The notes beneath the pieces are model-generated. The model made no database searches, was not told where the DNA came from, and saw nothing but the letters and a program-made list of their open reading frames with translations. The translations under genes were made by a program, and so were the position numbers. Source: Desulfobacteraceae bacterium (lineage in GTDB: Bacteria; Desulfobacterota; DSM-4660; Desulfatiglandales; Desulfatiglandaceae). Taken from it: a DNA stretch of 7,564 nt. Below are positions 299 through 7,426 of the stretch, piece by piece; the first letter of the stretch is position 1, and each line of letters opens with the position of its first letter. Location of the stretch: contig DSCZ01000233.1 of assembly GCA_011048855.1 (NCBI GenBank), positions 1 to 7,564 on the forward strand. Reading direction: 5' to 3'.

Positions 299-349
299 CG
301 GTTATAGACCCCGCAGTGGTTTTTTCGTTTGATTTTTCCTTCAACCGTT

Positions 350-365
350 GGAGAACAACCTTATG
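350..365 (+). promoter_or_regulatory. Ribosome binding site that sets the aldolase start at 363
   Basis: GGAG at 350-353 lies nine bases before the ATG at 363, a good Shine-Dalgarno spacing. An in-frame TTG at 348 would extend the protein by five residues, but it overlaps this site and has no ribosome binding site of its own, so the ATG at 363 is preferred. Confidence 0.7.
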
Positions 366-1127
366 AAATTCATCCGGGAACGTGTTTTAAAACAGGAATT
401 CATGGCCGGCGCCTGGTGTAATCTGGGTTCTCCGATCACCGTGGAAATGGCCGCCCGTGCCGATTTTGACTGGATACTGATAGACCAGGAGCACGGGCCA
501 GGGGACAACATGACCCTCCTCCACCAGATTCAGGCCGCCGAGGCCGGTTCGGCCCCGATCATCGTGCGTATAGCGTGGAATGAAATGCCGAGATTCAAGC
601 GTGTACTCGACCTGGGAGCCGCCGGTGTCATGGTTCCTTATGTTCAGACTCCACAGGAAGCCGCCGACGTAGTATCTTTCATGCGTTATCCACCGGAGGG
701 GGTACGGGGTGTGGCGAGCACCCCCAGGGCGGCTGGATTCGGCCACGATTTCTCCGAATACTTCGACGCCGCAAACCGCAGTCTTCTCACCGTCGTCCAG
801 ATTGAAACGGCCAGAGCAGTTAAGAATTTGGAAGCCATTGCCTCTGTTCCAGGAGTGGATGTTCTTTTCGTCGGTCCTCTGGATCTCTCCATAAGCCTTC
901 AAAAACCAGGACGGTTCAAGGATCCTGATTTTATCGAAGTCTTAAAACATATTTCCTCCGTCGTGAAATCCACCGGCAAGGCGGCGGGAATGTTTCTGCC
1001 CGGTCTGCCCGAACTGCCGCTCGCCGTCGAACTCGGTTTTACGTTTGTCGCTGTATGTACCGACGGAGGCATCGTGACCTCAGGCATGAAAGATTCTATA
1101 ACGGCCGTGAACAAATACAGGCACTAA
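363..1127 (+). CDS. HpcH/HpaI-family class II aldolase
   Basis: This is a 254-residue cytosolic aldolase of the HpcH/HpaI (citrate lyase beta-like) family, a usual length. Family members use a divalent metal and cleave 2-keto-3-deoxy sugar acids or 4-hydroxy-2-oxo acids to pyruvate plus an aldehyde; GarL (ketodeoxyglucarate), RhmA (ketodeoxyrhamnonate) and HpaI are examples. The key positions are visible: the IDQEHGP block with the catalytic base His44, the substrate-binding Arg69 in VRIAWNE, Glu148 in QIET and Asp174 in GPLDLS as metal ligands, and the GAAGVMVP core strand. It is first in an operon with an IlvD-type and a UxaA-type dehydratase, which would make its 2-keto-3-deoxy substrate. 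I infer sugar-acid rather than aromatic catabolism from these neighbours. Which sugar acid it serves cannot be settled by sequence. Confidence 0.93.
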   Translation: MKFIRERVLKQEFMAGAWCNLGSPITVEMAARADFDWILIDQEHGPGDNMTLLHQIQAAEAGSAPIIVRIAWNEMPRFKRVLDLGAAGVMVPYVQTPQEAADVVSFMRYPPEGVRGVASTPRAAGFGHDFSEYFDAANRSLLTVVQIETARAVKNLEAIASVPGVDVLFVGPLDLSISLQKPGRFKDPDFIEVLKHISSVVKSTGKAAGMFLPGLPELPLAVELGFTFVAVCTDGGIVTSGMKDSITAVNKYRH

Positions 1128-1203
1128 CGATGATGGGCCCCCAATTTAAAATCCGAACACGCTCTGACCGATCTAACTGAATAAAACCAAAAAAGGAGTT
1201 CCC

Positions 1204-1522
1204 ATGCCCGATATCCCTACCCGCCTGATTTCATACATCAATCTCGTGGACTTCTGCCGAAGCGCATATGAAAAATGCGGAGTTTCGCCGGAAGAGGCAA
1301 GGATAGGCGCAGAGTACCGTATCAGTAGGCCGGGTCATCCTTAATGCGAAAAATGGCGTTTCAATTCCCCAGGGCTGGGCCGTAGATGCAAAAGGCCGCC
1401 CGACCACCGATCCGGTCGACGTAAGCGAACGCTTATCTTCGGGCACCCCTATACCCGAAGCTGTTGCATGTGAACTGCAGAACCTGGCCAAACGGCTGGG
1501 AGTGACGTTAAGCTTCCAATAG
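1204..1522 (+). pseudogene. Malate/L-lactate dehydrogenase (Ldh2 family) remnant with internal deletions
   Basis: A good ribosome binding site (AAGGAG, within 1191-1200) precedes an ATG at 1204. The first frame encodes an N-terminal piece typical of Ldh2-family NAD(P)-dependent 2-hydroxyacid dehydrogenases (FCRSAYEKCGVSPEEA) and stops at 1342-1344 after 46 residues. From about 1319 a second frame carries a block from the middle to late part of the family (NAKNGVSIPQGWAVDAKG, then RPTTDP). From about 1424 the same frame continues with what looks like the extreme C-terminus (SGTPIPEAV, LAKRLGV) and stops at 1520-1522. Intact members have about 340-360 residues, so most of the NAD-binding and catalytic core is gone in two deletions, near 1315-1320 (with frame change) and near 1415-1430 (frame kept). 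It cannot be active. It sits between aldolase and dehydratase genes, so it was probably the redox enzyme of the same pathway. Confidence 0.82.
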
Positions 1523-1558
1523 CGGCACCCAAAACCAGGCAGGCAGGAGAGAAATTAA

Positions 1559-3244
1559 ATGAAAGACTATGTTTCGATCACCAAGAAGACACGCAGTCGG
1601 ATACTGGTGGAAGGGCCTCATAAAGCCGGTGAACGGGCTCACCTGCGCTCTCTCGGCCTTTCCGGAGATGACTTGAACCGACCGTTCATTGCAATAGCCA
1701 ATTCTTTCAACGAGGCCCATCCGGGACATGTGCACCTGCGCGGCTTGGCCGAAGAAGTGAAAAGAGGTATTTTTCAGGCCGGAGGTATCGCTTTTGAGTT
1801 CAACACGATAGCAATCTGCGACGGCCTGACCCAGGGCCATATCGGCATGAGGTATGTACTTCCCAGCCGCGACCTGATAGCCGACTCGATCGAGCTTGTC
1901 GTCGAGGCTCAACAGATGGATGGTGTGGTTTTTATATCTTCGTGCGACAAAATCGAACCAGCCATGTTAATGGCGATGGTTCGACTCGACCTGCCGTCTG
2001 TGATGCTCACCGGAGGTCCTATGCTGCCCGGCACTTTCAAAGGACGGCCCGTCGCGATTCCGGACATGCGGGAAGCTGTGGGTCGCTGGGTGAGCGGTGA
2101 ATTGAACGACAACGAAATACTGGAGCTTGAATGCAACGTGTGCCCCGGCCCGGGTTCCTGTGCGATGATGGGCACCGCGAATACCATGGCATGCGTAGCC
2201 GAGATCCTTGGCCTGACTCTCCCTGGCTGCGCCACCGCTTCCGCGGTTTCCTCCGTTAAAAAACGCCTGGCCCGGGAAAGCGGCCGGCTTGTAGTGAAAC
2301 TGATCGAAGAAGGGATCACCCCTGGCAAAATCATCACGAAAGCCGGCCTTCACAACGCTGTGACCCTGTGCGCTGCAATAGGCGGCAGCACGAATGCAGT
2401 GCTTCATCTCCCAGCAATTGCCGGCGAGCTGGATATTGACATCGGTCCGGAGGATTTCGACGGTATCAGCCGAAAAACCCCTTATCTCACCAGCATAAAG
2501 CCTTCCGGACCCTATACCACCGCCGACCTGGACAGGGCCGGGGGAGTGCCGGCCCTGATCAAGAGGCTTCTTCCGGTGTTGAACGCGGATGAGAAGAACC
2601 TCTTGGGTGAGACCATCACCCAGATCGCTGCACGGGCCGAAGTGCGGGACCAGGAAGTAATAAGGCCGCTCGACAATCCCGTGCGCAAACAGGGTTCCTA
2701 CGCTGTCCTCAAAGGAAACCTGGCACCGGAGGGAGCTGTTGTCAAAATATCGGGAGTTGCGCCTGAAATGATGCGCCATTCCGGTCCTGCAAGGGTGTTC
2801 AACAGCGAAGAGGAAGCCGACGAGGCGATTTATGACGGCCGAATAAATTCGGGCGATGTGCTCGTACTGCGTTACGAAGGCCCTAAGGGTGGCCCGGGCA
2901 TGAGAGAAATGTTGGGTGCCACAGCCGCATTGATGGGCATGGGACTTGGAACCTCAACCGCCCTGATAACCGATGGCAGGTTTTCCGGGGCGACCCGCGG
3001 CCCCTGCATCGGACACATTGCCCCGGAAGCCGCGGCTGGAGGCCCCATAGCATTTGTGAATGAAGGAGATATTATCGAAATCGACATCCCGGCGCGCACG
3101 CTTGAACTCAAAGTCGCCCGGGAAGAACTGTTAAAGCGGCGTCAAAGCACAACGATCCTAAGCAAAAAAGTCCGTGGTGCACTCAAACGTTACAGCCGCC
3201 TTGTTGGAAGCGTTTCCAAGGGGGCCAGGCTCGATGATGAATGA
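1559..3244 (+). CDS. IlvD/Edd-family Fe-S dehydratase (probable sugar-acid dehydratase)
   Basis: This 561-residue cytosolic enzyme has the full length of the dihydroxy-acid / 6-phosphogluconate / aldonate dehydratase family, which removes water from 2,3-dihydroxy acids to give 2-keto-3-deoxy acids. Visible features are CDGLTQGH (88-94), SSCDK with cluster ligand Cys129 and metal-binding Asp130-Lys131, CPGPGSC with likely cluster ligand Cys201, GGSTNA (275-280), GGPGMREML (444-452) and [11 protein letters not shown] with catalytic Ser476. The first cysteine found in [2Fe-2S] members (in PCN or PCH) is replaced here by PGHVHL (55-60), as in E. coli IlvD, which carries a [4Fe-4S] cluster. AGGAGA at 1545-1550 supports the start. 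The next gene begins 12 bp after the stop. No valine or isoleucine biosynthesis gene is nearby and the neighbours are sugar-acid enzymes, so a catabolic role is more likely, but true dihydroxy-acid dehydratase activity cannot be excluded. Confidence 0.92.
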
Positions 3245-3256
3245 AAGGAAGCCAAA

Positions 3257-4786
3257 ATGTCCGAAACGCGATCCACTATCCTGAAACTTCACCCTGAAGA
3301 CAATGTTGTTCTTGCACTCGTAGATATTCCGGGGGGTTCGGAGCCGGCTCCCGGAGTCTTCTGCAAGCAGAGGATTCCCGCTGCTCACAAAATCGCCTCC
3401 GAACCTATCCCGGCCGGAGCCCCAATCGTCAAGTACGGGCAGATCATCGGATTTGCCTCCACCGATATTCCGGCCGGCGTTCACGTGCACACCCACAATG
3501 TCTTATTCAAAGATTTTCCGCGCGATTCGCAGCCATCATCCGGCAAAATACCGCCACAGGAAACACTTCCACCCGAAAAACGCTCATGTTTCAATGGTAT
3601 TCTCAGGCCTGACGGCAGGGCGGGGACCCGCAACTACATCGGAATCATACCCACATCGGCCTGTTCGAGCCAGGTGGCAGTGGAAATAGCCCGCTCTATT
3701 GGAAAAATCGACATGGAACCCTTTACGCACGTAGACGGAATCGTGGCCCTCCCCCACAAGGACGGCTGCGGGATGCTCGACAGGGACGAAGGGCTCTCGA
3801 TGCTCCAGAGAACCGTCGCAGGGTATGCTGATAACCCTAATTTTGCGTCTGTCGTGTTGGTGAGCCTCGGCTGCGAGGTAAACCAACCGGAAGCTCTCTG
3901 CGAGATGCTTGCTTCCACAGCCTGGAAGCCGGTGGTCAGCATAGACATTCAAAAGCTTGGCGGTGCCCGCGCCGCTATTAATGCCGGTCACGCTGCGGTC
4001 ATGGACATGCTTACAACCGCGGATCAAGCAAGGAGACAATCTCTCTCTGCGGAACATCTCGTGGTGGGACTCGAATGCGGAGGCTCCGACGCCTACTCGG
4101 GAATCAGCGCCAACCCGGCCCTGGGAGCCGCGGTGGATCTACTGGTTCAAAACGGAGGGACCGCGATCCTGTCTGAGACTCCTGAAATATACATGGCCGA
4201 ACACCTTCTCGCCCGCAGAGCTGCAAACCCCAGGGTGCACGACGATCTTCTGGATATAATCGACTGGTGGGAAACCTACTCCTCCACACGGGGACAGACT
4301 ATAAACAACAACCCTACGCCCGGAAACAAGGCGGGGGGTTTGACGACGATCGCGGAAAAATCTCTTGGAGCCGTGGCCAAAGGAGGAACGAGCCCCCTTA
4401 ACGCCGTTTATCGGTACGCTGAAAAGGTCAATGTCGGCGGACTTGTATTCATGGATTCACCGGGCTATGATCCAGTTTCCATCACCGGAAAGGTGGCCGG
4501 GGGAGCAACTCTCATTTGTTTCACCACCGGCTGCGGCAGTGTCTCCGGGTGTAAGCCGTCACCTGTCCTAAAACTGGCAAGCAACAGCAACCTCTACCTA
4601 AGGCTCGAGAAAGACATGGATATAAACTGCGGATCGATATTGGACGGTGAAACCAGTGTCGAAACAATGGGGCGCCGTATTTTTGAGAGGATCCTGTCCA
4701 CGGCCTCAGGATCTCCGACGAAATCGGAACAACAGGGGTTCGGAGACATGGAATTCTCACCCTGGTTGATAGGGGGAGTGCTCTAA
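3257..4786 (+). CDS. UxaA/GarD-family altronate or aldarate dehydratase
   Basis: This 509-residue protein matches the single-chain UxaA layout (E. coli UxaA and GarD are about 495-523 residues). These iron-dependent enzymes dehydrate altronate or galactarate-type acids to 2-keto-3-deoxy acids. An N-terminal SAF domain (about 7-84; LHPEDNV, GHKI-like AAHKI, KYGQIIG, VHVHTHN) is joined by a proline-rich linker to the catalytic part: GILRPDGRAGTRNY (114-127), HKDGCGM (167-173), GLECGGSDAYSG (271-282), FTTGCGS (422-428) and DMDINCG (453-459). SuyAB sulfolactate lyase has related modules on two chains, so the fused form favours a sugar-acid substrate. The start has AAAGGAA six bases upstream and lies 12 bp after the IlvD-type gene, which suggests translational coupling. 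One oddity is Cys426, where the family usually has Arg (TTGRGS). Confidence 0.93.
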   Translation: MSETRSTILKLHPEDNVVLALVDIPGGSEPAPGVFCKQRIPAAHKIASEPIPAGAPIVKYGQIIGFASTDIPAGVHVHTHNVLFKDFPRDSQPSSGKIPPQETLPPEKRSCFNGILRPDGRAGTRNYIGIIPTSACSSQVAVEIARSIGKIDMEPFTHVDGIVALPHKDGCGMLDRDEGLSMLQRTVAGYADNPNFASVVLVSLGCEVNQPEALCEMLASTAWKPVVSIDIQKLGGARAAINAGHAAVMDMLTTADQARRQSLSAEHLVVGLECGGSDAYSGISANPALGAAVDLLVQNGGTAILSETPEIYMAEHLLARRAANPRVHDDLLDIIDWWETYSSTRGQTINNNPTPGNKAGGLTTIAEKSLGAVAKGGTSPLNAVYRYAEKVNVGGLVFMDSPGYDPVSITGKVAGGATLICFTTGCGSVSGCKPSPVLKLASNSNLYLRLEKDMDINCGSILDGETSVETMGRRIFERILSTASGSPTKSEQQGFGDMEFSPWLIGGVL

Positions 4787-4797
4787 GATTTTAGATC

Positions 4798-6540
4798 TCA
4801 CCCGTTGTTCTCGGCCCCCTGCAGCCTGACGAGGTTTTCCCTGGCGAAATCCAGATCCGGATCCAGTTCCAGTGCCAGGCTGTAATATTGAACGGCCTCC
4901 TCCACCTTACCCATATCTCTATAGTTGGAGGCGATGTTGGCGTAGTCGATTCCGGAGCCGGGATTTAAGGCCAACACGCTTTTAAAACATTCTATAGCTT
5001 TTTCATGCTCTTTGAGCTTGAAGTGACAGAATCCCATTAGATTGTAAACATCCGTCCGCTCACGGTCCAGCTGCTCGGCTTTTTTAAGCACCTCTAACGC
5101 TTCCCGGTAACGCTCCAGTTCTTTTAGACAAACCCCGGTATAGGAATAAATGGTAGGCAGCTCCTGTTCGGCAGGATCTAGGTCAGAGGCTGCCCTCAGG
5201 TGCTGAAGAGCCTCTCCAGGTTCATCGATGGAAAGATATGTGAGGCCCAGAAAAAATCGGGTGTAATATTTGCCTGGAAGCCTCCGATTCATCTCCTGAA
5301 GAAGCGGAATTGCGGAATCCGCCCCGTCGCCTCCGGCAATCAGCTTAGCGGTAAGCATACCGACGCTCGTACCGGAAGTGCGCTCACGGAAATGGGCACC
5401 GGGAACCACAACGTAAACAGCAGGAATTTTTAAATCCGGATTTGTAACGTCGATCACGAACGCATGCAGACCCTGATCCGCTAATTTCTGGACGCATTGT
5501 TCAACTTCAACCCGGATATTGGAATCCGACAAATCAGGCAGCGACCGGATAGAAACAACCGTTTCCCCCCCTGTCAGAAATTCAACATCTTCAAGTGCGC
5601 GAGGTTTCGGAAGACCGCTCGCGACATAACTGGAACCGCTGTTGAAGTCCCCCCCGAGCTGGGCCGCTTCGGTTAATGCCCTTACAACGGCCTTTTGCGG
5701 GTCGGGGCTGGTTCCGGCGGTCCATACTATCTCACTTCTGCCGGGAAATGTCGCCGGGTCATAAGCAATCACCCCCACAGTTGCAATTCCGGTATTGAGA
5801 CTCATATCGAAAAGAAACACGCTGATACCGGCATGTTCAAATTTATCAAGAAGCCCCCGGGCTACGGGGTCGGTCACCGTAGCCTTGTCGATGATCGGCA
5901 CCGTCATCTTAGAACGGCTGACCACCGAAGATACATGCCGTTCGACGACCTCACACAGGGCTTGAAGCACGGCTTCTTCGATACAATTACCGGCCGCAGA
6001 GCCATTGTATTCATTGAGCGCAAAGAACCAATCGAACGGCACCAGTCTCTCGTCTCCGGTAGTCAAATCGACGCCCGCCGTCCATTTGACCGGGGTCATG
6101 GAAAAAAGATCGAGTGCTGCAGATGCATCGATCGAATCATCATGAACCGACAGCCGAATCTGGTCCAGCCCCATCGCCTTCCCAGACACTTCTTCATGGG
6201 GAAAACGTATGAAATTGGCTGGATCCGAGCTGAAAGTAAACAGACTGTATCGTTCAGCCAGCTCCATTACCGCACTGGCCTCGGCCTGCGAAGGGCTGGC
6301 GCCTTTTCCCATCTGCTTTTTGGCCCCTGTCGCCGTTTCAGCATCCCTTCCACACAGGCTGAAATAAACCGGTATGTCCAGCCTTCCGTTGTCTATCCTC
6401 ACAGTCTCTTTGAGAATATCCAGCCTCACTCCGGCCAGCTTTTCCCTGAAAACACCCACGGTCTGTTCCGGGGCCATTATCTTGCCGAGTTCGAATGTCT
6501 CGGTCTTAAAAGCATCCTTAAGTGTTATTCCTCGATTCAT
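4798..6540 (-). CDS. YcaO-domain protein with C-terminal TPR repeats
   Basis: This 580-residue protein joins a YcaO domain (about 8-390) to about four tetratricopeptide repeats (about 424-457, 464-491, 498-527, 532-561). YcaO domains phosphorylate a backbone amide with ATP to make azolines or thioamides in peptides and proteins. The ATP-site motifs are present: GKGASPSQA followed by MELAER (Glu93, Glu96, Arg97), GNCIEEA followed by CEVVERH (Glu197, Glu200, Arg201), and GTSPDPQKA with LTEAAQ (276-294). The N-terminus (FKTETFELGK ... LDIPVYFS) resembles the group that includes the McrA-thioglycine enzymes of methanogens more than E. coli YcaO. The C-terminal PxPxP of RiPP cyclodehydratases is absent; the chain ends in the TPR region, a likely partner- or substrate-binding module. 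It lies 46 bp after larE on the same strand, with AGGGAGA (forward 6551-6557) ten bases before its ATG. No precursor peptide, E1-like partner or TfuA gene is visible. Its substrate is unknown. Confidence 0.92.
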   Translation of the reverse strand: MNRGITLKDAFKTETFELGKIMAPEQTVGVFREKLAGVRLDILKETVRIDNGRLDIPVYFSLCGRDAETATGAKKQMGKGASPSQAEASAVMELAERYSLFTFSSDPANFIRFPHEEVSGKAMGLDQIRLSVHDDSIDASAALDLFSMTPVKWTAGVDLTTGDERLVPFDWFFALNEYNGSAAGNCIEEAVLQALCEVVERHVSSVVSRSKMTVPIIDKATVTDPVARGLLDKFEHAGISVFLFDMSLNTGIATVGVIAYDPATFPGRSEIVWTAGTSPDPQKAVVRALTEAAQLGGDFNSGSSYVASGLPKPRALEDVEFLTGGETVVSIRSLPDLSDSNIRVEVEQCVQKLADQGLHAFVIDVTNPDLKIPAVYVVVPGAHFRERTSGTSVGMLTAKLIAGGDGADSAIPLLQEMNRRLPGKYYTRFFLGLTYLSIDEPGEALQHLRAASDLDPAEQELPTIYSYTGVCLKELERYREALEVLKKAEQLDRERTDVYNLMGFCHFKLKEHEKAIECFKSVLALNPGSGIDYANIASNYRDMGKVEEAVQYYSLALELDPDLDFARENLVRLQGAENNG

Positions 6541-6586
6541 CCCGATATACTCTCCCTGCCTCGTCGATAATTCCGGAGAAAACTTT

Positions 6587-7426
6587 TCAACGAGGCGGAT
6601 CTTCTTTGAATTTTGGTAAAAGTTCGCGGTTCATTTTTCCGGAAACATAGCCTTCCAGGTCGAGTGCCACGTGGTAGAACCCGATCGAGCGAAAAGCCTC
6701 AACAACCGCCGTCCGTCGAACCGGATCGATGATTTTTCCAAAGGACTCTGTCGGCAATTCGATCCTGGCCGTCGTTCCATGATGCCGCACACGTGACTGA
6801 CGAAAACCCAGCCTCTCCAGGCATTGCTCGGCATCGCGCACCGCAGTCAGTTTCTGAGCGGTTATCATCGTGCCGTATGGAATCCTGCTGGCCAGGCAGG
6901 CCATTGTCGGAAGGTTCCAGGTCGGCAGTTTTTTTGCCCTTGAAATTTCGCGGATATCTTCTTTCGTAAGACCGGCTTCAAGCAGCGGTGCTCGTATCCC
7001 GGCTTCCTCGGCAGCACGCAAACCGGGGCGAAAATCCTCTGGATCATCGGCATTCGCGCCGTGCACCACCCACGGGACTCCCCTGGAACCGGCAATTCCC
7101 TTCAATTTGTCGATCATCGCTTTCTTACAATAGTAGCAGCGTTCCGGCCCGTTTTCGACAAACTCAGGGATCTCAGTTTCATTCGATCGGATAACGATGT
7201 GTTCCACTCCCAGGTTTTTCGCGAAATTTCTGGCCCTCTCAGTCTCCGAAACGGGATATATAACGGATTCAGCCGTCACCGCTATAACTTTCGAACCCAA
7301 TTTCTGATGGGCTGCAGACAAAAGAAATGCACTGTCAACCCCTCCGGAAAAAGCCACAATCACAGATTCGAACCGGCCTAGAATTTCCAATAGTTTTTCA
7401 AACTTTCGTTCAACATCGTCTGCCAT
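6587..7426 (-). CDS. larE: ATP-dependent sacrificial sulfur transferase LarE
   Basis: This 279-residue cytosolic PP-loop ATPase matches the LarE family in length and motifs. LarE adenylates a carboxylate of the pyridinium biscarboxylate mononucleotide and inserts sulfur, a step in making the nickel-pincer nucleotide of lactate racemase LarA. Visible are the PP-loop SGGVDS (27-32), PERCYYCK (Cys97, Cys100), GANADD (124-128), DFRPGLRAA (131-139), EAGLTKEDIR (150-159) and ACLASRIPYG (176-185), whose Cys177 aligns with the sacrificial cysteine of the Lactobacillus plantarum enzyme. The extra CxxC pair marks the three-cysteine type, which in Thermotoga maritima LarE holds an Fe-S cluster for catalytic sulfur transfer. 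An upstream in-frame GTG (7486) would add 20 residues but lacks a ribosome binding site; the ATG at 7426 has GAGAGG (forward 7437-7442) ten bases before it. It leads the pair with the YcaO gene. Confidence 0.92.
   Translation of the reverse strand: MADDVERKFEKLLEILGRFESVIVAFSGGVDSAFLLSAAHQKLGSKVIAVTAESVIYPVSETERARNFAKNLGVEHIVIRSNETEIPEFVENGPERCYYCKKAMIDKLKGIAGSRGVPWVVHGANADDPEDFRPGLRAAEEAGIRAPLLEAGLTKEDIREISRAKKLPTWNLPTMACLASRIPYGTMITAQKLTAVRDAEQCLERLGFRQSRVRHHGTTARIELPTESFGKIIDPVRRTAVVEAFRSIGFYHVALDLEGYVSGKMNRELLPKFKEDPPR

Follow-up and report, generated by a model that had tools for sequence, protein, structure and literature searches.

Introduction

Methyl-coenzyme M reductase (MCR) and uL16 are counted as the two known protein targets of thioamidation by YcaO enzymes (PMC13063428). 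The latter is modified at Met82 by the YcaO of E. coli, which also carries a tetratricopeptide repeat (TPR) domain, and the route by which sulfur reaches this enzyme is stated as open in the same report. In the ycaO-tfuA thioamidation loci, acting on MCR or on ribosomally synthesized and post-translationally modified peptides (RiPPs), a YcaO gene lies beside a sulfur-handling gene. A likewise arranged locus is found in positions 1 to 7,564 of contig DSCZ01000233.1 of a Desulfobacteraceae bacterium (assembly GCA_011048855.1; this whole stretch is hereafter called the window), where a gene for a YcaO protein with a C-terminal TPR domain (YcaO-TPR) has larE, which encodes a putative [4Fe-4S]-type, ATP-dependent sulfur insertase, as its neighbour. 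The original prediction took the two genes for a possible undescribed sulfur-insertion system, in which LarE would supply sulfur to YcaO-TPR or YcaO-TPR would act in nickel-pincer cofactor biology. The reading we now prefer, which we put at slightly below an even chance, is that YcaO-TPR is an orphan protein-thioamidating YcaO of sulfate reducers, and that LarE is an ordinary enzyme of nickel-pincer nucleotide (NPN) synthesis and not an obligate partner.

A YcaO protein with TPR repeats is also encoded in another sulfate reducer, D. vulgaris, as DVU2210, which is linked to molybdate sensitivity in the excerpts consulted of PMC7774982; its 20-residue ATP motif published there fits the same pattern as that of the window protein, a comparison confined to the motif. 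In the open-licence PMC literature we found no account of the larE/YcaO-TPR pair, no named YcaO substrate in sulfate reducers, and no match for YcaO with Desulfovibrio and thioamide or for dissimilatory sulfite reductase with thioamide, which is not proof of absence; the excerpts consulted of PMC7058361, PMC7583248, PMC10128000 and PMC10322722 hold nothing on the pair. A YcaO-TPR family tied to sulfate reducers could be a third protein-thioamidating YcaO system. If so, a guild of great biogeochemical weight would offer a new modified protein to search for, and D. vulgaris DVU2210, already available as deletion strains, would be a case amenable to genetics; the appearance of this gene in molybdate-resistance and syntrophy evolution experiments might also be explained.

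The window locus and its YcaO-TPR protein

On the minus strand of the window, larE (6587..7426; ATG at 7426, stop at 6587; 279 aa) is followed by the YcaO-TPR gene (4798..6540; 580 aa), and the 46-bp gap between them (6541..6586) contains a purine-rich stretch ahead of the YcaO start and no terminator-like site. Coordinates and family scans confirm that the two genes lie on the same strand and converge on a sugar-acid operon. The absence of LarA, LarB, LarC and TfuA from the window, also noted originally, was borne out for the five main open reading frames (ORFs), which were scanned with Pfam and NCBIfam models. Among the matches listed, the five nearest proteins were 81-83% identical, one of them named Desulfatiglandaceae.

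The YcaO domain (PF02624) was matched at residues 77-382 (5395..6312, minus strand) with 248.4 bits, above the cut-off of 25.7, and is followed by several TPR models. The ATP-binding motif Sx6-7Ex3Qx3ExxER is present as a pattern match at residues 181-201 (5938..6000, minus strand), and the strict pattern was found in 103 of 113 YcaO-TPR proteins. In the AlphaFold2 model (pLDDT 87.6, pTM 0.85), secondary structure places the helices of the C-terminal TPR domain at residues 393-576 (4813..5364, minus strand).

Compared with E. coli YcaO (4q84), the window protein has the same architecture of a YcaO domain with a C-terminal TPR domain, likewise has no detected TfuA, and is similarly acidic (pI 4.87, and 4.4 for E. 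coli; PMC13063428), whereas the profile similarity is weak (E 1.2e-12) and the score with the uL16 thioamidation model NF040716 is 54.4 bits against a cut-off of 700. Against the model of the McrA-thioamidating methanogen YcaO (TIGR03266; M. jannaschii MJ1094, 6pe3/6peu; M. kandleri, 6ci7) it scores 139.6 bits, with a cut-off of 365, and it differs from these enzymes in the extra C-terminal TPR domain, in the lack of a detected TfuA and in the linkage to larE or other sulfur genes. Nevertheless, both the family profile and VIA-align gave the MCR-thioamidating YcaO of M. jannaschii as the top YcaO match among PDB entries. This match and the E. coli precedent leave thioamidation, as first proposed, the best guess for the chemistry, and we infer that YcaO-TPR is a sulfate-reducer-specific member of the YcaO group that acts on whole folded proteins. 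Plasmid records contained 179 with a YcaO-domain match, none of which covered 80% of the YcaO-TPR query.

YcaO-TPR follows sulfate reduction and not the lar genes

To determine co-occurrence, we drew 247 genomes from the phylum to which Desulfonema magnum belongs, taken here to be Desulfobacterota, with a minimum completeness of 85 requested. Up to five YcaO-TPR candidates, ten LarE candidates and seven each for LarC, dsrA and radical SAM were scored per genome, so that misses are possible, and the Fisher tests ignore relatedness. Full-length YcaO-TPR was found in 86 genomes, a LarE match in 221 (213 over the cut-off) and LarC in 216. LarE tracked LarC closely, with both in 210 genomes, LarE only in 11, LarC only in six and neither in 20 (odds ratio 64). 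No such association was seen between LarE and YcaO-TPR (both in 74, YcaO-TPR only in 12, LarE only in 147, neither in 14; odds ratio 0.59, p 0.20). Since YcaO-TPR genomes without a LarE match exist and LarE does not track YcaO-TPR, LarE is not required for YcaO-TPR.

These counts bear on the proposal of a role for YcaO-TPR in the biology of LarA or of the nickel-pincer cofactor, which the gene order with larE would suit, as would the thioamide linkage that attaches NPN to L. plantarum LarA according to excerpts of PMC9283937. Against this, YcaO-TPR and LarC did not co-occur beyond expectation (odds ratio 0.83, p 0.69), LarC, too, went unmatched in 10 of the 12 YcaO-TPR genomes that gave no LarE match, YcaO-TPR was missing from 147 of the 221 LarE genomes, and a LarA domain was found in just 17 of 30 genomes carrying the pair. 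We therefore rejected YcaO-TPR as a nickel-pincer gene and consider such a role, one of the two originally suggested, very improbable.

The distribution of dsrA gave a different picture. A dsrA match was obtained for 123 of the 247 genomes, scoring above the cut-off in 122, and these 123 include every one of the 86 YcaO-TPR carriers, one of which (G224) had only partial dsrA matches below the cut-off. YcaO-TPR was found in none of the 124 genomes without a dsrA match, and the resulting counts (86 with both, none with YcaO-TPR only, 37 with dsrA only and 124 with neither) correspond to p 3e-37, uncorrected for kinship. The dsrA search had no positive control, as none of the 14 control genomes showed dsrA. 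When a divergent member was used as query, the named relatives among the 120 matches listed were Thermodesulfobacterium, Caldimicrobium, Thermosulfurimonas, Thermodesulfatator, Thermosulfuriphilus and Desulfovibrionales, which are sulfate reducers or sulfur disproportionators. These results hint that YcaO-TPR tracks sulfate reduction rather than larE and that it may serve an undescribed protein modification in sulfate reducers.

In the mechanism we propose, a backbone amide of one conserved protein encoded elsewhere would be activated by the YcaO domain at the expense of ATP, the C-terminal TPR domain would help to hold this target, and sulfide would replace the amide oxygen to give a thioamide. 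Because the cytoplasm of a sulfate reducer is rich in sulfide, TfuA would be dispensable.

The larE/YcaO-TPR pair and the supply of sulfur

For the survey of larE beside YcaO-TPR called for by the original prediction, we scanned one genome per species with tblastn (E up to 1e-3) and obtained 484 stretches with a relative, TPR-only relatives not being excluded. The best 80 of these were kept, all of them 54-62% identical over the full or near-full length of YcaO-TPR. In 25 of the 80, larE was directly upstream on the same strand (two larE genes being cut by a contig end), and the pairing is thus wider than one strain or a few relatives. Twenty-three of the 25 fall among the 64 loci having more than 900 bp upstream, where the next same-strand upstream family reached three. 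The gap ranged from -29 to 323 bp (median 16), with six overlaps. In three further loci, not counted as adjacent, larE was 0.6-4.5 kb upstream, 609 and 1041 bp away in two of them. As the sequences show, larE followed by YcaO-TPR is a conserved two-gene unit in part of the phylum. The pairing required five changes on the LarE tree (49 rows) and six on the YcaO-TPR tree (81 rows), near and broken larE being scored as paired, and therefore looks old, inherited and broken several times.

A conserved downstream partner was looked for in the 25 larE-adjacent loci and rejected, the commonest other neighbour family being present in five and the next in three. Over all 80 loci other neighbour families recurred in up to 15, mostly where larE was not adjacent, and those viewed by eye (hisA/hisB, ParA, primase and ABC-transporter-like) seemed ordinary. 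Two loci besides the 25, L046 and L016, have a broken larE upstream of YcaO-TPR. In L046 it is interrupted by a run of N; as this break lies in the record itself, the locus was dismissed as a case of larE decay.

The LarE of the window resembles an ordinary member of its family. It scores 318.7 bits with TIGR00268 (curated cut-off 150), and the closest solved chains are those of L. plantarum LarE (6b2o, E 8.8e-44; 5udq, E 2.9e-43). The PP-loop SGGVDS, which fits SGGxDS, is at residues 27-32 (7331..7348, minus strand); S27, G29, D31 and S32 are kept in 48 of 49 aligned LarE rows, the remaining one having a gap there, and G28 in 47. The excerpts consulted of PMC9283937 describe a CXXC-C motif for the cluster-dependent T. 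maritima LarE, a [4Fe-4S]-dependent sulfur insertase. The corresponding cysteines of the window protein, C97 and C100 of the CXXC (7127..7138, minus strand) and C177 (6896..6898, minus strand), are invariant in all 49 rows, and by this motif the window LarE looks like the [4Fe-4S] type. It shares with the T. maritima enzyme these cysteines, the SGGxDS loop and a score far over the family cut-off, and differs in that its gene sits with YcaO-TPR and not with larB and larC. The residues S180, R212 and R214, named in the same excerpts for the P2CMN site of L. plantarum LarE, are all present in the window protein; the two arginines are found in 49 of 49 rows and position 180 is S or T throughout. 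A special YcaO-linked LarE subfamily was considered and rejected, as LarE rows from adjacent and non-adjacent loci intermix on the tree and have the same motif residues.

Other lar genes were found away from the pair. LarE, LarC and LarA were searched in 50 genomes hand-picked from the 80 loci (30 in which larE is adjacent or close to YcaO-TPR, and 20 in which it is not), and TfuA and LarB in the former 30, hereafter the pair genomes. In 27 of the 30, exactly one LarE exceeded the cut-off and its coordinates were those of the larE linked to YcaO-TPR; the other three had two LarE, one partial match and none, respectively. The pair genomes contained larC in 25, larB in 22 and larE, larB and larC together in 20. 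In all 25, larC was on another contig or, in G002, 610 kb away, although separate contigs of a metagenome-assembled genome (MAG) are no proof of distance. On the question raised originally, whether the pair occurs without larB, larC and larA, larB and larC were not seen beside it, and both are found elsewhere in most pair genomes. Since larB and larC are present in most of these genomes, the LarE of the pair most likely makes the nickel-pincer cofactor, judging from gene content and conserved residues. In two genomes without the pair (L081 and L082), larE was together with larB and larC; in Desulfonema magnum (L081:1422-6614) the order of this cluster is larE, larB, a ThiF/MoeB-like gene and larC.

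TfuA (PF07812) was found in none of the 30 pair genomes, and the control of this search was recovered. The lack of TfuA is one of several points for the alternative that LarE is the true sulfur donor of YcaO-TPR in the pair lineages, delivering the extra sulfide of its [4Fe-4S] cluster to the YcaO-activated amide, with a NIL-4Fe4S protein or free sulfide serving elsewhere. This would accord with the tight and at times overlapping order in 25 of the 80 loci, with the low recurrence of any other neighbour family in these 25 (five at most), with the Fe-S protein that also abuts YcaO-TPR in nine Thermodesulfobacterium-like loci described below, and with the proposal, in excerpts of PMC9283937, that T. 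maritima LarE passes on a non-core sulfide. Yet the NPN substrate residues are kept, the linked LarE is usually the sole one of a genome in which larB and larC are present too, the LarE tree shows no clade specific to YcaO-linked members, and 12 of the 86 YcaO-TPR genomes gave no LarE match. Moreover, an intact YcaO-TPR is preceded by a partly deleted larE in L016 (1200-2390), the single MAG of this kind, in which no other LarE or LarC match was found. We regard such a donor function as unlikely, with a chance that is still appreciable, and the dedicated LarE donor of the original prediction was not upheld. What stands of the proposed sulfur-insertion unit is the conserved pair, thioamidation as the best guess, the lack of TfuA and the sulfur-gene neighbours in other lineages.

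Under the orphan-thioamidase reading that we prefer, the LarE of the unit would be the usual nickel-pincer sulfur insertase of the cell, working with larB and larC from other sites, and larE would probably be co-transcribed with YcaO-TPR through a shared need for activated sulfur or through the same regulation. A direct hand-off of sulfur from LarE to YcaO-TPR could occur and would be unneeded.

Neighbours of YcaO-TPR in other lineages

The surroundings of 33 YcaO-TPR loci from other lineages, hand-picked for divergence, were searched for ten gene families. LarE was beside YcaO-TPR in none of the 33, and a NIL-4Fe4S gene abutted it in 11. Nine of these 11 are Thermodesulfobacterium- and Thermodesulfatator-like, four of them presumably so, and MnmA was near in eight of the nine. 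In the other two, G078 and G108 (loci L107:1320-5438 and L280) the order HcyS, NIL-4Fe4S, YcaO-TPR and Thi4 was observed, the genes abutting or overlapping as in an operon. In some other lineages, the place of larE may be taken by a NIL-ferredoxin with HcyS, Thi4 or MnmA genes. Apart from LarE, no family sought was within 400 bp of YcaO-TPR in the first 80 loci.

Other neighbours were also seen. In eight of the 33 loci (L117, L118 and L273-L278), a lysine-methyltransferase-like gene, PF10294 in the two that were scanned, shares 4 or 8 bp with the start of YcaO-TPR. A B12 radical SAM gene follows YcaO-TPR in G022, and the coordinates show the same in G059 and G093. In L120 (2-2377), YcaO-TPR is followed on the same strand by a gene for a 791-aa protein that combines B12-binding and radical SAM regions with FKBP/trigger-factor-like ones. 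Another kind of YcaO, about 480 aa long and ending in a short TPR stretch, was observed at L113:125-1594, L114:10440-11897 and L115:2117-3562, and comes closer to the McrA thioamidation model, with 176.3 bits for the L115 protein.

Observations that weigh against the preferred reading

Several observations count against a thioamidating YcaO tied to sulfate reduction, and they concern its neighbours, its distribution and its chemistry. As for the neighbours, TsaE and GT9 genes were found in two of the 33 other-lineage loci, and none of the ten families sought was present around 11 of them. Such unrelated or missing neighbours would suit the explanation that the pair is an ancient gene order which persists through inheritance and common housekeeping expression, its two proteins being unrelated in function. 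So would the lack of correlation between LarE and YcaO-TPR in the 247 genomes and the few independent origins implied by the five and six tree changes. This explanation sits poorly with larE being by far the commonest same-strand upstream neighbour, with the overlap of the two genes in six of 25 loci, and with the return of sulfur-insertion genes as neighbours in 11 of 33 loci of unrelated lineages. We see in it a minority prospect to be taken seriously.

As for the distribution, 37 dsrA genomes show no YcaO-TPR, and three genomes (G038, G181 and G208) keep a long-type dsrA and have no match to YcaO-TPR, LarE or LarC. On an rpoB species tree of 79 hand-picked genomes (29 of the 86 with YcaO-TPR, 30 of the 37 with dsrA only and 20 of the 124 without dsrA; the short row G115 was dropped), YcaO-TPR needs six changes and dsrA eight. 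Of six independent pairs differing in YcaO-TPR, one or two were concordant with dsrA, none discordant, and the others did not differ in dsrA (p 0.5-1). The nesting of YcaO-TPR within dsrA is mostly phylogenetic; it is real, with few independent events behind it. Furthermore, according to excerpts of PMC7774982, sulfate respiration continues in D. vulgaris strains that lack DVU2210 and retain sat, and any modification is therefore not essential there.

As for the chemistry, YcaO-TPR fails to reach the cut-off for any of the curated functional YcaO subfamilies that it matched, including the RiPP thiazole/oxazole model TIGR03604 (116.2 bits, cut-off 219.25), and exceeds only that of the generic TIGR00702. 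TruD was close behind the M. jannaschii enzyme in the profile search (1.3e-29), the single-sequence search ranked the azoline-forming TruD (7.9e-21) and LynD (1.7e-18) before MJ1094 (5.8e-18), and Foldseek put LynD first (4.9e-17 vs 2.5e-16). A reaction other than thioamidation, such as formation of an amidine or azoline, another use of ATP or a peptidase reaction, would fit these rankings, and such activities are known in the YcaO superfamily (excerpts of PMC13063428); since the methyltransferase-like gene overlaps YcaO-TPR in eight of 33 loci, another chemistry may be involved. The nearness of the MCR-thioamidating enzymes by family profile and VIA-align and the frequent sulfur-insertion neighbours speak for thioamidation instead, as does the lack of a precursor peptide gene, none being noticed in the window or among the families of 60 aa or more that recur in the 80 loci, a search that did not extend to shorter ORFs. 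We judge a non-thioamide chemistry to be rather improbable.

A shared TPR module and two DsrAB types

Nine sulfate reducers without YcaO-TPR encode a protein of about 570-650 aa with a TPR domain like that of the window protein, 39-46% identical over 141-170 aa in the five compared. The window protein scores 109-151 bits against these proteins, while the TPR proteins beside dsrAB reach at most 57 bits. Seven of the nine have this gene directly beside one for a B12 radical SAM protein, and in the other two it lies about 2 and 14 kb from such a gene. The radical SAM gene, which is B12-binding, precedes the TPR-protein gene in L101 (469-5812), L102 (2450-5499), L103, L104, L105, L157 and L159, and the two stand directly upstream of dsrAB in G025 (L101). 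Among the 247 genomes, B12 radical SAM was found in 21, namely 13 of the 37 with dsrA and without YcaO-TPR, seven of the 86 with YcaO-TPR and one of the 124 without dsrA.

A DsrA tree was built from 36 of the 37 dsrA genomes without YcaO-TPR (the truncated G125 was dropped) and 20 of the 86 with it. YcaO-TPR or radical SAM was present in 30 of 34 rows of one clade, mostly with long DsrA, and in 3 of the 22 other rows, the sampling being uneven. On the species tree, four to six of ten independent pairs agreed with the long DsrA type and none went against it. Neither YcaO-TPR nor radical SAM was found in the 18 carriers of the short DsrAB type. The shared TPR module and the DsrA-clade pattern suggest that YcaO-TPR and the B12 radical SAM enzyme act on one substrate, perhaps a Dsr protein. 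An extended version, which we hold to be doubtful, is that the TPR module docks a conserved dissimilatory sulfur protein, with DsrAB as candidate, that YcaO thioamidates and/or the B12 radical SAM enzyme methylates in an MCR-like maturation, and that interchangeable Fe-S carriers (LarE, or NIL-ferredoxin in Thermodesulfobacterium relatives) or free sulfide provide the sulfur.

A DsrA or DsrB residue marking the YcaO-TPR carriers was also sought and rejected, as the differences split the two DsrAB types and no single site did so for the carriers. Relative to the long type, the short one (DsrA of 387-409 aa) is missing an internal segment and most of the C-terminal tail, and it was observed in loci L122-L125, L131, L132, L135, L136, L139, L143, L144, L146-L148 and L153-L156. 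In 18 of 57 dsrAB loci, for example at L173:4325-4957 and L142:538-1173, dsrAB has beside it, on one side or the other, a gene for a TPR protein whose length is about 210 aa and, as read, reaches 275 aa.

In the window itself, 11 bp separate the YcaO-TPR stop from the stop of the convergent plus-strand gene (3257-4786). This gene belongs to the sugar-acid operon (348-4786, plus strand), which encodes an HpaI-type aldolase, an IlvD/EDD dehydratase and an altronate/galactarate-type dehydratase.

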